64,000 bases of DNA from Mycolicibacterium insubricum. GTDB lineage: Bacteria; Actinomycetota; Actinomycetes; Mycobacteriales; Mycobacteriaceae. Numbering within the stretch: the first letter of the stretch is position 1; each line of letters begins with the position of its first letter. Location: assembly GCF_010731615.1 (NCBI RefSeq), contig NZ_AP022618.1, positions 3,348,001-3,412,000 on the forward strand, written 5' to 3'. Position numbers and translations under genes: made by a program. The notes beneath the pieces are model-generated. The model did no database searches. It worked only from the letters and a program-made list of their open reading frames with translations, and was not told the DNA's origin. This document shows, piece by piece, positions 27,959 through 33,361 of the stretch.

Positions 27959-28312
27959 ATGTACGGTATTGCGGTGCAGACGCTCACCCACACCGATGCG
28001 CTGGCGCGCTTCGGTCATGCACTGTCGGACACCACCCGCACCCGGATTCTGCTGGCGCTCGCCGAGTCGCCGAACTATCCGGCGGAGCTGGCCGATCAGA
28101 TCGGCGTGTCCCGGCAGACGCTGTCCAACCATCTGGCCTGCCTGCGCGGCTGCGGTCTGGTGGTTGCCGCGCCCGAGGGACGGCGAACCCGCTACGAACT
28201 CGCCGACGCCCGCATCGGAAAGGCGCTCGGCGACCTGTTGGGCCTGGTGCTGGCGGTGGACCCGAACTGCCGATGCGTCGGCGCCGACGGTGAACCCTGC
28301 GGGTGCCGGTGA
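27959..28312 (+). CDS. ArsR/SmtB-family metal sensor, CmtR-like
   Basis: A 117-residue winged-helix repressor. The DNA-recognition region is ADQIGVSRQTLSNHLACLRG, followed by the wing GRRTRYELADARIG. The recognition helix bears Cys61 and Cys65 in HLACLRGCGLV, matching the Cys57/Cys61 pair that binds Cd(II) or Pb(II) in M. tuberculosis CmtR. More cysteines close the protein (DPNCRCVGAD then EPCGCR), one of which could play the part of CmtR Cys102. GTG 27974 is an alternative start that would match the CmtR N-terminus better. Its TGA shares one base with the next ATG, so it controls and is cotranscribed with the transporter gene. Confidence 0.88.
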   Translation: MYGIAVQTLTHTDALARFGHALSDTTRTRILLALAESPNYPAELADQIGVSRQTLSNHLACLRGCGLVVAAPEGRRTRYELADARIGKALGDLLGLVLAVDPNCRCVGADGEPCGCR

Positions 28313-28998
28313 TGGCCGCCGTGCCCACGCTCTCCCCGGACCGGCGCGCGCTGCTGGCCCGGCGGATCCGGTGGTTCGTCGCCGCGACGATCAGCTACAA
28401 CGTCATCGAGGCCGTCGTCGCGCTGTCGGAGGGCGCCCGGGTGTCCTCGACCGCCCTCATCGGGTTCGGTCTGGACTCGGTGATCGAGGTGTCCTCGGCG
28501 GCCGCGGTCGCCTGGCAGTTCGCATCGCCGACCCCGGAGGACCGGGAGAGGGTTGCGCTACGGATCATTGCGTTCTCGTTCTTCGGGCTCGCCGTCTACG
28601 TCACGGTCGACGCCGTGCGTTCGCTGCTCGGCGTCGGCGAGGCGCAACATTCCACCGTGGGCCTCGTACTGGCCGGACTCAGCCTGGTGATCATGCCGGT
28701 GCTGTCCTACGCGCAGCGACGGGCCGGGCGCGAACTCGGATCACTGTCGGCGGTGGCCGATTCCAAACAGACGCTGCTGTGCACCTACCTGTCGGCGGTG
28801 CTGCTGGTCGGCTTGGCGCTCAACAGCCTGTTCGGCTGGTCCTGGGCCGACCCGATCGCCGGTCTGGTCATCGCCGGCATCGCCGTGAAGGAGGGCATCA
28901 ACGCTTGGCGGGGCGATACCTGTTGCCCGGCCCCGGGGTCCCTGCTCGCTGCCGAGACCACCGGTGATGAGTGCGGGTGCGACTGCTGCCCGGACTAA
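28312..28998 (+). CDS. CDF-like cation transporter with cysteine-rich C-terminus
   Basis: A 228-residue polytopic protein with about five to six hydrophobic helices and motifs recalling cation diffusion facilitators: GFGLDSVIEVSSAAAVAW (DxxxE in place of HxxxD) and SAVADSKQTLLCTYLS then DPIAGLVIAGIAVKEG. The usual histidine ligands are replaced by Asp, Glu and Cys, and the tail carries two CC pairs and CGC (WRGDTCCPA, ECGCDCCPD), suggesting a soft metal such as cadmium, lead or copper. It is translationally coupled (TGATG) to the CmtR-like sensor. Family membership is by motif; the metal is inference. Confidence 0.82.
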   Translation: MAAVPTLSPDRRALLARRIRWFVAATISYNVIEAVVALSEGARVSSTALIGFGLDSVIEVSSAAAVAWQFASPTPEDRERVALRIIAFSFFGLAVYVTVDAVRSLLGVGEAQHSTVGLVLAGLSLVIMPVLSYAQRRAGRELGSLSAVADSKQTLLCTYLSAVLLVGLALNSLFGWSWADPIAGLVIAGIAVKEGINAWRGDTCCPAPGSLLAAETTGDECGCDCCPD

Positions 28999-29992: not shown

Positions 29993-30038
29993 CTGGTGGG
30001 CGCGGACGGTATCGAACCGCCGACCGCTGGTGTGTAAA
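29993..30038. repeat. Left attachment repeat (partial tRNA-Val 3' end)
   Basis: 46 bases identical to 33286-33331. They contain the T-arm, variable region and 3' half of the anticodon arm of tRNA-Val with its encoded CCA, but no 5' half, so this copy cannot form a tRNA. Identity ends at 30038, where G replaces A. Confidence 0.93.
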
Positions 30039-30053
30039 GGAACCGTAGAAAGT

Positions 30054-30065
30054 GAACACCCGTTC
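30054..30065. repeat. GAACACCCGTTC copy 1 (SOS-box-like inverted repeat)
   Basis: The 12-mer GAACACCCGTTC has inverted ends (GAAC-N4-GTTC), the core form of the Gram-positive and mycobacterial LexA box. It begins 16 bases inside the left attachment repeat. It could equally be an integrase arm-type site. Confidence 0.45.
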
Positions 30066-30168
30066 TACCGTGTCCAGTGTGTGCAGCTCAGAGCGGCGCG
30101 CGTGTCCGGCCGATGGCGTCGTGTCCACTGCGTTAGGCGGTGTCTTGGCAACTTGGCGGCAACACGAC

Positions 30169-30180
30169 GAACACCCGTTC
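30169..30180. repeat. GAACACCCGTTC copy 2 (SOS-box-like inverted repeat)
   Basis: A second identical 12-mer 115 bases after the first, here with flanking C and G that extend the symmetry to CGAAC-N4-GTTCG, close to the mycobacterial SOS consensus. No plus-strand gene follows closely that would obviously be controlled by it. Confidence 0.5.
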
Positions 30181-30198
30181 GGCGGTCTCGCGGCGCTG

Positions 30199-30636
30199 CT
30201 ACCCGGTCATGAGGTTGCCGCCAGCGCCTCCGAGAGCGCCGACCGCAATCTGGTACGCCGCACCGCGCAGCGACAGCGCGAGTTGGCGGAACCGCCCGCG
30301 TTCCTCGTCCTGGCGCGACTCGTCGTCAGCGGCGCTCTCGATTGCGACGATCAGTCGTTCGAGCTGCGCCTCGGGCGACGGCCACTGTCCTGCGACCCTC
30401 AGCGCCTCGCTGGTCGGGGTGCCAACCATGATGAGTCCGCCGCCCCACGACCCGTTGCCCTTCGTGAAATAGGGCTGGGTGTAGAGAGCGCGCAACGCCC
30501 GTTGCACCGTGTCACCGTCAAACCCGGTGCGCTGCTGGACGGCGGTCACTCGCGGACCTCTGCCGGTTTCCTCGTACAGCTCCACAACGGCCCTAAGCAC
30601 AGGCAGGTCTCGGGATGTCCAAGTGTCGTCAGTCAT
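30199..30636 (-). CDS. Winged-helix-like protein of the island operon
   Basis: A 145-residue protein of unknown function. The N-terminal 70 residues (LPVLRAVVELYEETGRGPRV, then TGFDGDTVQRALRALYTQPYF) look like a winged helix in which the helix pair TAVQQRTGFDGDTVQRALRAL could bind DNA, followed by a hairpin with GSWGGGLIMVG. The remainder is helical (SPEAQLERLIVAIESAADDE, RFRQLALSLRGAAYQIAVGA). It starts 47 bases after the upstream 327-residue gene ends, so it is probably cotranscribed. It may regulate the module or be part of it. Base composition is lower in GC than the surrounding core. Confidence 0.7.
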   Translation of the reverse strand: MTDDTWTSRDLPVLRAVVELYEETGRGPRVTAVQQRTGFDGDTVQRALRALYTQPYFTKGNGSWGGGLIMVGTPTSEALRVAGQWPSPEAQLERLIVAIESAADDESRQDEERGRFRQLALSLRGAAYQIAVGALGGAGGNLMTG

Positions 30637-30683
30637 GCCGGGAGTATCGCGCATCGCTGCGACATCCACCGGCGAGCCCGCGG

Positions 30684-31667
30684 TCAGTCGGGCAACCGCT
30701 CCACACGCAGTCCGTCATAGGTGGTCTTCGATACGCCAGCTGTGGACACCGAGGTCTTCATCTGCGCGGTGATACGAACCCGATCGAGAATTGCAATTCC
30801 CACGGTCTGCTCATGCGGGATGCTTGCGTGCTTGATCGCGACCGGGTCGCCGTCGGTCGGTTCGATTAGCCATTGTTGGCTCTGGACAGTACTGACGGTC
30901 AGCACGCGTCCTTCGATGATGACTGGCTCGGTATCGGACTCTGAAAGCTCGATGGCCCTGGCGATCAGATCAGCTTTACCCGCGCCGAGGTGGACCCGCG
31001 CTGTCGCCCGCTGAGGCTGTCGCCACTCGACATCTACGTCGAACTGGCTGCGGTGAACAGAACGCGTGAAATCACGCATACAAGCGGCAGTGCGAGGCCC
31101 CAACTCAACGATGCCGTCGATGAAGTCCGAGCCGGTCAGTTCCGGCGATAAGTCATTACCCCTCGTCAGCAGGGTGATTGCCTCAACGACGGCATGGTCG
31201 ATCTGTTGGTCGTCATCGCTGGGCTCGCGAAACATGGATACGGCTCCCTGCGGGCCGTCTCCGACCTCGTCGGCTGGCGACGACTCGGGCATGAGGTCGA
31301 ACACCAGTGATCCCCGACCAGGGCTTCCAGCGATCATCAGTCTGCTTTTGCGCATCACCGCGGCACTGGCCTGCTTCCCAAGTTCCTTGTCGCCGTCCTC
31401 TGCCGCGGCTATCGCAGTGGTGAGCCGCTGGAAGTGGTGCAGTGCTCGGGTCACCTCGGATAGTGGTGCGGCCGAGTGCATTACACCTGAGCCGCTGAAT
31501 CGCAAAACGCCTAGCGACGGCAGCGTGCGAACGATCGACAGATCGGCAGCGAGTGCCTCGAAGCTCATCCGGCTCACGTCGCCCGGTGTCTGCCAGCCCG
31601 CGGGTCCGGACGCCGACGCCATGATGACGTGTTCGAGGTCTTCGAGGCTCGGATCATTTAAAGCCAT
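30684..31667 (-). CDS. Unknown 327-residue protein paired with a nucleotidyltransferase-like gene
   Basis: I do not recognise the family. The protein has a helical N-terminal third (SEVTRALHHFQRLTTAIAAA around residue 70-90), a segment GSPGRGSLVFDLMPESSPADE near 115-135, an acidic linker, a second helical part (IDHAVVEAITLLTRGNDLSP) and a beta-rich C-terminal part (ARVHLGAGKADLIARAIE, EPVIIEGRVLTVSTVQ, AILDRVRITAQMKTSVS). No signal peptide, membrane helix or zinc motif is seen. Its first 14 bases overlap the end of the DUF6932-like gene, so the two products are made together and may form a complex. Codon use is less GC-rich than neighbouring core genes. Confidence 0.75.
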   Translation of the reverse strand: MALNDPSLEDLEHVIMASASGPAGWQTPGDVSRMSFEALAADLSIVRTLPSLGVLRFSGSGVMHSAAPLSEVTRALHHFQRLTTAIAAAEDGDKELGKQASAAVMRKSRLMIAGSPGRGSLVFDLMPESSPADEVGDGPQGAVSMFREPSDDDQQIDHAVVEAITLLTRGNDLSPELTGSDFIDGIVELGPRTAACMRDFTRSVHRSQFDVDVEWRQPQRATARVHLGAGKADLIARAIELSESDTEPVIIEGRVLTVSTVQSQQWLIEPTDGDPVAIKHASIPHEQTVGIAILDRVRITAQMKTSVSTAGVSKTTYDGLRVERLPD

Positions 31668-32202
31668 CGAAGATCACCTCCAAGTAGCCACGGCGCGGTA
31701 AAGCGTCGGTCCGGACGGCTGGCGCGCCCTTGGGACCAGACCTCATTCTGGCCCAAAAGTCGTCCCAGTGACCACGTGCCGCCCAATAATCCCTGGTATC
31801 GGGCATCGCCTGAGTGATATCTGGGCAGCAGTTCCAGGCGACGACGAAAGTATCTACCCGAAGGCCGACAAGTCCCCGAAGCTGATCCTTCTTCGAGAAC
31901 ACCTCGACCATGTGCGCGCTCGCCGGGTTTAGCTGCGCAATCTTCAATGCCATGTAGTCGACCCAATACACGCAGTCGATGTCATCCGGCGCATCCTTGC
32001 TGGTGAAAAAGCTGCCGCTGACCCATGTCGCCAGAATCGCGACATGCTGTTGAAGCAGCGCCGTGGCCTTCTGCCAGTCGTTCCACACCTGTTCGCGAGC
32101 AGACCCCTTGCCGTCGACAAATTCAGCCTGGATCTCGGCGAGCTGTGCGGGGTAACGCCCGACCGGCAACGCGCCGGTCGACGCGTCGAGTGCTGGAATC
32201 AA
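31654..32202 (-). CDS. Nucleotidyltransferase-like DUF6932-type protein
   Basis: A 182-residue protein starting at a TTG (MIPALDASTGALPVGRYPAQ) with a G-rich ribosome site just upstream. The N-terminal IPALD...LPVGRYPA pattern and the core ATWVSGSFFTSKDAPDDIDC resemble the DUF6932 family. The core supplies Gly63-Ser64 and, nine residues on, Asp74-Ile-Asp76: GS-X9-DxD, the active-site pattern of the polymerase-beta nucleotidyltransferase fold, as in minimal nucleotidyltransferases of toxin-antitoxin and abortive-infection systems. The substrate is unknown. It heads a three-gene operon inside the tRNA-Val island and overlaps the next gene by 14 bases. Confidence 0.75.
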   Translation of the reverse strand: MIPALDASTGALPVGRYPAQLAEIQAEFVDGKGSAREQVWNDWQKATALLQQHVAILATWVSGSFFTSKDAPDDIDCVYWVDYMALKIAQLNPASAHMVEVFSKKDQLRGLVGLRVDTFVVAWNCCPDITQAMPDTRDYWAARGHWDDFWARMRSGPKGAPAVRTDALPRRGYLEVIFDGFK

Positions 32203-32367
32203 CGTCCCCCCGAACCATCACCGCTCCGACTATGTGCTGACGATCTGCCATCATCGCCGCTGTGGTCAGCAACCGGGTCAACAACCGGATATCAAAGGGA
32301 TCACGATAACGCCTACGCCGTCGGGCTCCGCATACTGCTCAGGCACACGGGACGCTCGCCCGACCGG

Positions 32368-32542
32368 TCAGCAGTGGGTCGGGCAGCCGCCGCCGTCGAT
32401 CGACGCGGCCACCGCCCCGAGCGCGTACAGCACGGCCTCGCGGTCGCTGACGTGGCGCAGCGTCAGCTCGGCCTCGATGCCGCCCAGCGGGGCGTCCCTC
32501 GCCGCACACCGCGGACAGCGGCAGCCCGACCCCGACGGCGGG
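32368..32542 (-). pseudogene. C-terminal fragment of an unidentified gene abutting the IS remnant
   Basis: In one minus-strand frame the segment reads as a plausible protein end (RDAPLGGIEAELTLRHVSDR, then EAVLYALGAVAASIDGGGCP) finishing THC and a stop. It has no start of its own and begins exactly where similarity to an ISL3 transposase stops, in a different frame. I read it as the remaining tail of a gene cut by the IS or by a deletion. The family is not recognised. Confidence 0.4.
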
Positions 32543-33178
32543 GACATAGCTTCGGGTGGGCAGGATTTCGATGATCTGGTGGTTGGCGACATCGGCGACG
32601 GTGGTCGCATACGAGCGGCCCCGACGGCCGGCGAGTTTGACGAACGAGGTCTCGTCCAAGCCGATCGCGGTGGTGGCGTTGAGGCGACGCCGATCAGCAG
32701 CCAGCAGCGCCGCACCGTAGGTCATGACTGCGTCGTTGACGGTATGCCAGTCACACGAGAGCTCACCGGCGACATCGGAGACCGCACGACCGGTCCCGAC
32801 CTGCAGAGTCGCCCATTTGGCGCACCGGGTCGTCAGCAGGCAGTTCTTAGCGGCGATGCGGTGATCGGCACTGGTCCAGCTCGCCCCCGCACAGTCGGGT
32901 CGCCGGCAGATCAACCGGTGCTTGCGCCACGCCAGCCGCATCGGCTGGCCGTACACGGGCAGGTCAACATAGCGCACGGTCGGCCGTTCCTTGATCTGGC
33001 CGGGAACCCCGCAGGTCGGGCAGGTTCGCTCGACGACGGTCTGCTCGATCACCAGCTCGACATCGGGACCGATGCGCCGGTAGGCCAACACGCGGACGTC
33101 CTTGAGCCCGACCAGGGCTTCGACGATCTGACTAGGCTCACAACCGACGAAGGTGCTTTTGGATTTGATGGTCGCGCT
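32543..33178 (-). pseudogene. Truncated ISL3-family transposase
   Basis: The open frame reads TFVGCEPSQIVEALVGLKDV, a zinc finger (CPTCG then CRRPDC with upstream cysteines), RYVDLPVYGQPMRLAWRKHR, a helix-turn-helix (AVSDVAGELSCDWHTVNDAV) and the first catalytic aspartate in AIGLDETSFVKL, then DVANHQIIEILPTRSY, all in ISL3 order. It breaks at about 32543, losing the second aspartate, the glutamate and roughly the C-terminal half. No ATG or GTG lies between the upstream TGA (33179) and GTG 33091, so the N-terminus may also be damaged. The copy cannot transpose on its own. Confidence 0.82.
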
Positions 33179-33285
33179 TCAAAGACTCAGGCACCTTCGC
33201 CCCTCACAACCGCAGGGCACGCCGACCTCAAAGCCAACACCGGACCCCGCTGCAATCCGAAGAACCGCTAAATCCCCCTGTTGAG

Positions 33286-33331
33286 CTGGTGGGCGCGGAC
33301 GGTATCGAACCGCCGACCGCTGGTGTGTAAA
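33286..33331. repeat. Right attachment repeat (3' part of intact tRNA-Val)
   Basis: 46 bases identical to 29993-30038. Here the repeat is continuous with the 5' half of the tRNA gene, so integration restored a working tRNA. Confidence 0.93.
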
Positions 33332-33361
33332 ACCAGAGCTCTACCACTGAGCTACGCGCCC
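33287..33361 (-). tRNA. tRNA-Val (anticodon TAC)
   Basis: Read on the minus strand: acceptor GGGCGCG pairs with CGCGCCC; D-arm GCTCAGTGGTAGAGC; anticodon stem CTGGT/ACCAG around the loop TTTACAC with anticodon TAC; T-arm CGGCGGTTCGATACCG region; encoded CCA at the 3' end (33287-33289). All standard features of a valine tRNA are present. It is the integration target of the neighbouring island. Confidence 0.95.

Follow-up and report, generated by a model that had tools for sequence, protein, structure and literature searches.

Relation of the locus to described systems

The closest described relatives of the locus examined here are two-gene systems. PDC-M63 is a phage defense candidate that PADLOC catalogs as a two-gene type without a mechanism, and it has been the subject of one published deletion test (PMC12409345). 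PD-T4-10 (Vassallo et al. 2022) is presented, in the available text of PMC9519451, as two overlapping open reading frames (ORFs) forming a toxin-antitoxin system with abortive infection, of which PD-T4-10B is the toxin; the same text counts DUF6575 among the domains new to defense. In the literature searched, DUF6932 was named in no paper and DUF6575 in PMC9519451 alone, and only PMC12409345 and PMC9519451 bear on the mechanism or on a nucleotidyltransferase of this kind that lacks its active site. Here, a stretch of 64,000 nucleotides from Mycolicibacterium insubricum (assembly GCF_010731615.1, contig NZ_AP022618.1, positions 3,348,001 to 3,412,000 of the forward strand; "the window") was analyzed, in which two genes, A and B, encode a pair of the PDC-M63 type.

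31654-32202, minus strand: gene A, 182 residues, TTG start, a DUF6932 protein predicted to be a minimal Pol-beta-type nucleotidyltransferase
30684-31667, minus strand: gene B, 327 residues, a PDC-M63B-like protein predicted to have an alpha/beta part and a C-terminal oligonucleotide/oligosaccharide-binding (OB) fold (about residues 245-327)

The locus shares the two-gene make-up of PDC-M63, and A matches the PADLOC model PDC-M63A (E 1.6e-9, residues 20-107). Window B on its own reaches only E 0.018 against PDC-M63B; in the B family, 30 of 49 members match the PDC-M63B model PDLC04749 at E<=0.01, a cutoff applied in place of PADLOC's own calling thresholds, and some match other PDC-M63B models. 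An earlier note on this DNA had presented the locus as undescribed; judged by these profile matches, the A-B pair is instead of a type already listed as a candidate. HEPN-MNT systems likewise encode a minimal Pol-beta nucleotidyltransferase, as predicted for A, beside a partner, but the predicted alpha/beta and OB-fold architecture of B comes with no HEPN match. AbiE and MenAT also place a nucleotidyltransferase-fold protein in a two-gene module, whereas A belongs in Pfam to DUF6932, not DUF1814, and a Pfam scan of B at E<=1 gave no match.

A and B form a recurrent pair

The 14-nucleotide overlap between A and B and the minus-strand orientation of both, together with a third gene, C, that follows B after a gap of 14 nucleotides, agree with the three genes on one strand that had been reported earlier. 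Searching with A recovered 48 loci, 45 from genomes and 3 viral. B immediately follows A in 46 of them, with a match that is short and weak at L026; the two exceptions are a contig that stops 72 bases past the A match (L011) and a locus with an A fragment match only (L046). Across 297 genomes of the genus, DUF6932 was present in 26, at 31 places, and B was present at 28 of the 30 loci examined. The reciprocal search through B gave 35 places in 28 of the 297 genomes, some of the matches being short and weak, and A or an A fragment was found upstream at all 20 of the places examined. Furthermore, distances among A sequences correlated with those among their B partners (r of 0.868; maximum of 2000 permutations, 0.138), as calculated from the 58 of 72 A-B pairs kept as non-redundant. 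No single ORF matched both the A and the B profiles. A separate scan of 60 genus genomes with profile A7 gave no match, which is uninformative without a known positive. A and B are a real pair, and the recurrent pairing that the earlier note had named as a check is borne out. Their patchy occurrence and mobile location likewise fit an accessory rather than a core position. At L152 (genome G185, the same place as L053, a locus returned to below), A has a different 290-residue neighbor and a resolvase-like gene.

Gene B and its link to DUF6575 proteins

B is predicted to combine an alpha/beta part with a C-terminal OB-fold like that of single-stranded DNA-binding proteins; OB-fold entries filled its Foldseek list, so that the N-terminal part was barely probed. 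A search by sequence against solved structures gave no believable relative (best E of 0.18). Sequence comparison revealed homology between B and the C-terminal portion of DUF6575 proteins. In one such protein (L172), the N-terminal DUF6575 region (residues 16-123) is matched by the PADLOC model of the PD-T4-10 toxin, and we infer that PD-T4-10B is a DUF6575 protein. The second gene of PD-T4-10 would in this way be tied to B, and both systems consist of two overlapping ORFs.

An ORF of 135-148 residues lies just upstream in six of the seven DUF6575 loci (L172, L175, L176, L177, L201, and L202). These six occur in phage, plasmid, and integrase settings and have the appearance of a parallel two-gene system; the seventh, L178, holds a short DUF6575-only protein among small genes. 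Profiles of A did not match the small upstream ORFs (L172 and L175-L177), in which respect the DUF6575 loci tested differ from the window. In phage records, neither A nor the L172 DUF6575 protein had a match, and no viral locus was found for the cyanobacterial DUF6575 protein.

Gene A retains a predicted nucleotidyltransferase site that some lineages have lost

A passes the curated cutoff of DUF6932 (E 1.8e-22), the sole Pfam family that it matches at E<=1, with no match to AbiEii/DUF1814. The GS-X9-DxD pattern pointed out earlier (Gly63-Ser64, Asp74/Asp76) is present at those residues, D117 completes it, and the site is intact in the window copy. A minimal Pol-beta-type nucleotidyltransferase fold is confidently predicted for A, so that the polymerase-beta core, for which a structure prediction had been advised, appears in the model. 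Neither A nor B had a Foldseek match in the Protein Data Bank at E<=0.001, and by sequence no solved structure was a believable relative of A (best E of 0.089).

Among 153 distinct sequences of A, the site is retained in 125, substituted in 19, and gapped in 9. The kept forms (positions 63, 64, 74, 76, and 117) are 104 GSDDD, 12 GGDDD, 2 GTDDD, and 7 GSDDE, the last three being scored as kept by choice. On a tree built with the site columns removed, from the 120 of 153 rows that passed filters for length, gaps, and redundancy, three changes account for the 14 degenerate rows: one in a GSNDS clade that includes Streptomyces loci, one in a mycobacterial clade close to that of the window, and one confined to L074, a locus without B. 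The mycobacterial site-less forms (GRVSD, GQISD, and similar) retain D117, R143, D147, D148, and R152. W146 and W150 were lost together with the site and may therefore belong to catalysis.

Among eight mycobacterial site-less loci (28 pairs for each gene), pairwise ratios of nonsynonymous to synonymous substitution rates were 0.14-0.33 for A and 0.09-0.25 for B. For comparison, window-type A gave 0.16 (3 pairs) and the GSNDS type gave 0.11-0.38 (5 of 10 pairs unsaturated). Site-less mycobacterial A is under purifying selection and retains B.

A helix-turn-helix (HTH)-like gene lies upstream of full-length site-less A in 10 of 10 mycobacterial loci, 35-40 nucleotides before A in nine of them and overlapping the longest A frame in L067; two of the locus records counted, L064 and L076, have identical scores. 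With intact-site A, the gene is found in 4 of 27 rows (L069-L072, three with identical scores), two of the intact-site loci being counted twice among the 27, and it is absent in the window. The label was given from the sequence by eye, and Pfam gave no match. The gene, of about 200 residues, is conserved (L144, L145, L146, and L179) and marks a mycobacterial three-gene subtype also present on plasmid pMyong1.

Mobility of the pair

Segments of 5.2-6.3 kb that hold A-B are 94.9-99.8% identical among Kocuria, Cellulomonas, Galactobacter, Rarobacter, and Microbacterium, which we read as recent transfer between distant hosts. These segments (L012, L013, L014, L015, and L035) lie beside ORFs labeled by eye as metal-transporting-ATPase-like and ArsR-type-regulator-like. 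Plasmids carry relatives of A as well (five, from Mycobacterium, Paenarthrobacter, and Arthrobacter), and B follows in both of the two examined. Near A-B, 6 PF00589 and 5 PF00239 recombinases were found in 150 neighbor ORFs, a total of 11 if no ORF matches both. The 134 control ORFs held at most 1 per family, since neither appears in the list of families with at least 2 members, and the Fisher P value is 0.0007, 0.005, or 0.017 for 0, 1, or 2 control hits. An enrichment of tRNA genes across the A family is unsupported, with a tRNA at 8 of 48 loci; a tRNA is present in 5 of 8 A-carrying mycobacterial stretches, two of which (L140 and L141) apparently duplicate L003 and L002.

The island and the tRNA-Val site

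In the window, A, B, and C lie between two copies of an attachment (att) repeat.

29993-30038, plus strand: distal att repeat, 46 bp, identical to the repeat at the tRNA
30199-30669, minus strand: gene C, 156 residues, possible DNA-binding protein (phrog_3502, E 8.9e-6)
32339-33091, minus strand: ISL3-family transposase fragment, matching family positions 3-160 of 370
33286-33331, plus strand: proximal att repeat, 46 bp, at the 3' end of tRNA-Val
33287-33361, minus strand: tRNA-Val (tac), the integration target, whose 3' end is the proximal repeat

The 45-bp core of the repeat has 2 matches in the window at <=3 mismatches and 0 in 100 shuffles. With exact 46-bp repeats, the right one formed by the 3' end of tRNA-Val, the tRNA-integrated island described in the earlier note stands, as does its lower guanine-plus-cytosine content (0.597 for A, 0.615 for B, and 0.671 for C, against 0.696 for the whole window). 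The three genes span 2,004 of the 3,293 bases between repeat starts, and the remainder is mostly the ISL3 transposase fragment. This ORF sits between A and the tRNA. A second copy elsewhere in the genome shares about 99% identity with the DNA at 32532-33267, and there the transposase ORF runs to 438 codons.

A tblastn search with seven integrase queries detected none in the island (best E of 1.0; the other island ORFs were not Pfam-scanned) and gave no match anywhere in the window at E<=0.1. Two of the queries were Pfam-confirmed and five were labeled by eye; as a positive control, the integrase of L126 was recovered by three other queries and missed by those from L144, L146, and L148. The island resembles an integrative element whose integrase has been lost, perhaps through a deletion linked to the insertion sequence. 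A plasmid DNA search found no match to the island, and a sigma-70 scan, uninformative here, found no promoter. Short similar repeats with a GAACACCCGTTC core occur at 30054-30074 and 30169-30189, near the distal att end, and just outside the island (27959-28998) are genes labeled by eye as an ArsR-like regulator and cation-transporter-like.

The same tRNA-Val (tac), next to ahpE in relatives, carries other inserts of about 3.7 to 15.6 kb. A second direct repeat copy lies about 9.1 kb from the tRNA in L125, 15.6 kb in L126, 3.7 kb in L127, and 13.6 kb in L128; the copy in L129, at about 13.3 kb, is in inverted orientation, and eight relatives (L130-L136 and L138) have a single copy within the few kilobases examined. 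Phage-type integrases are present at the inserts of L125 and L126. The L125 insert also has an OLD-like gene, and that of L126 has a gene with an HSP90/histidine-kinase-type ATPase domain.

Gene C is a passenger

The module of three genes proposed in the earlier note was rejected. Relatives of C occur in 28 of the 297 genus genomes and adjoin A and B only in the window. Seven genomes have both C and A; besides that of the window, the two are on different contigs in four and about 200 kb apart in two. No C match was found in the 48 A loci or in eight A-carrying stretches, and at L148-L151 C occurs in other settings, partly element-like by labels given by eye. C is a passenger, outside the A-B system. 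Its description as winged-helix-like proved suggestive only; the match to LexA_DNA_bind (E 0.14) misses that family's cutoff.

Proposed mechanism and alternatives

We tentatively favor, at somewhat below even confidence, a toxin-antitoxin-like abortive-infection pair in which B is the effector and A its partner. This assignment is preferred because of the link of B to DUF6575 and PD-T4-10 and because the active site of A is dispensable in some lineages. B would be a nucleic-acid-directed effector, and A, translated together with it, would bind it; where the site is intact, as in the window, A would probably also nucleotidylate B or nucleic acid bound to B and thereby restrain it. Infection would upset the balance of the two proteins. 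A broader proposal, which we regard as doubtful, is that B is the founding member of a new OB-fold effector class, one that two families of mobile systems share while pairing it with different upstream partners: a protein with a nucleotidyltransferase fold in PDC-M63, or one of about 140 residues in DUF6575 systems. The nucleotidyltransferase fold would then serve mainly as a binding and sensing partner, and the system could survive repeated loss of the catalytic site, in mycobacteria alongside a third, HTH-like gene.

Several results weigh against B as the effector of an abortive-infection pair. Enrichment of defense genes near A-B, a check named in the earlier note, was negative: PADLOC at E<=1e-10 gave 41 families in 150 neighbor ORFs versus 169 in 134 control ORFs. 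The control families listed include PD-T4-6, mad3, mad6, AriA, GajA, MkoA, and a kinase model, which we take to be general kinases and ATPases. Neighbors (<=2 each side of A-B) came from a crude GC-position caller. The tally used 150 of 152 neighbor ORFs, and 181 control ORFs sampled to 152 and reduced to 134; it left out L011, L013, L014, L015, L046, and the viral loci and counted both L012 and L035 despite their partial near-identity. The DUF6575 domain, which forms the link to PD-T4-10B, is absent from B (Pfam scan, E<=1), and a comparison with the relative L173 only, as a single sequence, revealed no homology of B to the C-terminal part of PD-T4-10B; L173 matches PD-T4-10_B positions 137-350 with a stop inside. 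A occurs without recognizable B at L053 and L074. At L189 and L192, A is present only from about residue 62-65 onward beside a full-length B, which speaks against B being strongly toxic alone, unless the retained C-terminal part of A binds B; decay has gone further at L195, L197, and L198, where it extends to B. That the site persists in most A sequences argues for catalysis usually being important. Finally, PMC12409345 reports that no sign of defense was seen when PDC-M63AB was deleted from E. coli NILS69 and tested with 10 phages; its authors name limited phage diversity as one possible reason.

The frequent retention of the site would suit a system in which A is instead the effector, adding nucleotides to tRNA or other nucleic acid as MenT toxins do, with B as antitoxin or as an OB-fold subunit that presents the substrate. 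The predicted nucleotidyltransferase-type fold of A and the predicted OB-fold of its partner would be consistent with this, and nucleotidyltransferase toxins are known in mycobacteria. However, the site residues were lost three times on the tree with purifying selection on both genes in the mycobacterial clade, and A lacks the AbiEii/DUF1814 assignment, so we consider this rather unlikely. That the pair is not a defense system at all, serving instead nucleic-acid maintenance or repair to the benefit of its own mobile element or plasmid, seems unlikely: its location on islands and plasmids, the lack of enrichment in the PADLOC tally, and the negative deletion result would all fit, but the pair is a PADLOC defense candidate and has single defense neighbors, namely JetD with a JetC-like ATPase (Wadjet) in Nocardia brasiliensis and, in a Cryobacterium, type I HsdR some 1.6 kb upstream of A. 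Least probable, and in our view very unlikely, is a scheme resembling cyclic oligonucleotide-based antiphage signaling systems (CBASS), in which A would make a nucleotide signal on infection and B would sense it through the OB-fold and act as effector. Foldseek gave weak matches of A to a CdnE synthase (E 0.029) and to CdnC, but PADLOC at E<=1 returned only PDC-M63 models for A and B and no CBASS gene, and site-less A lineages are retained with B.

What is new for this family is that B shares homology with the C-terminal region of DUF6575 proteins and is tied through them to PD-T4-10, a proven toxin-antitoxin defense system. With B as effector and A as partner, this tie would give PDC-M63 its first testable mechanism. 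In natural site-less versions of A, which selection has maintained, catalysis and the partner role are separated, and these versions may serve as ready material for comparison.
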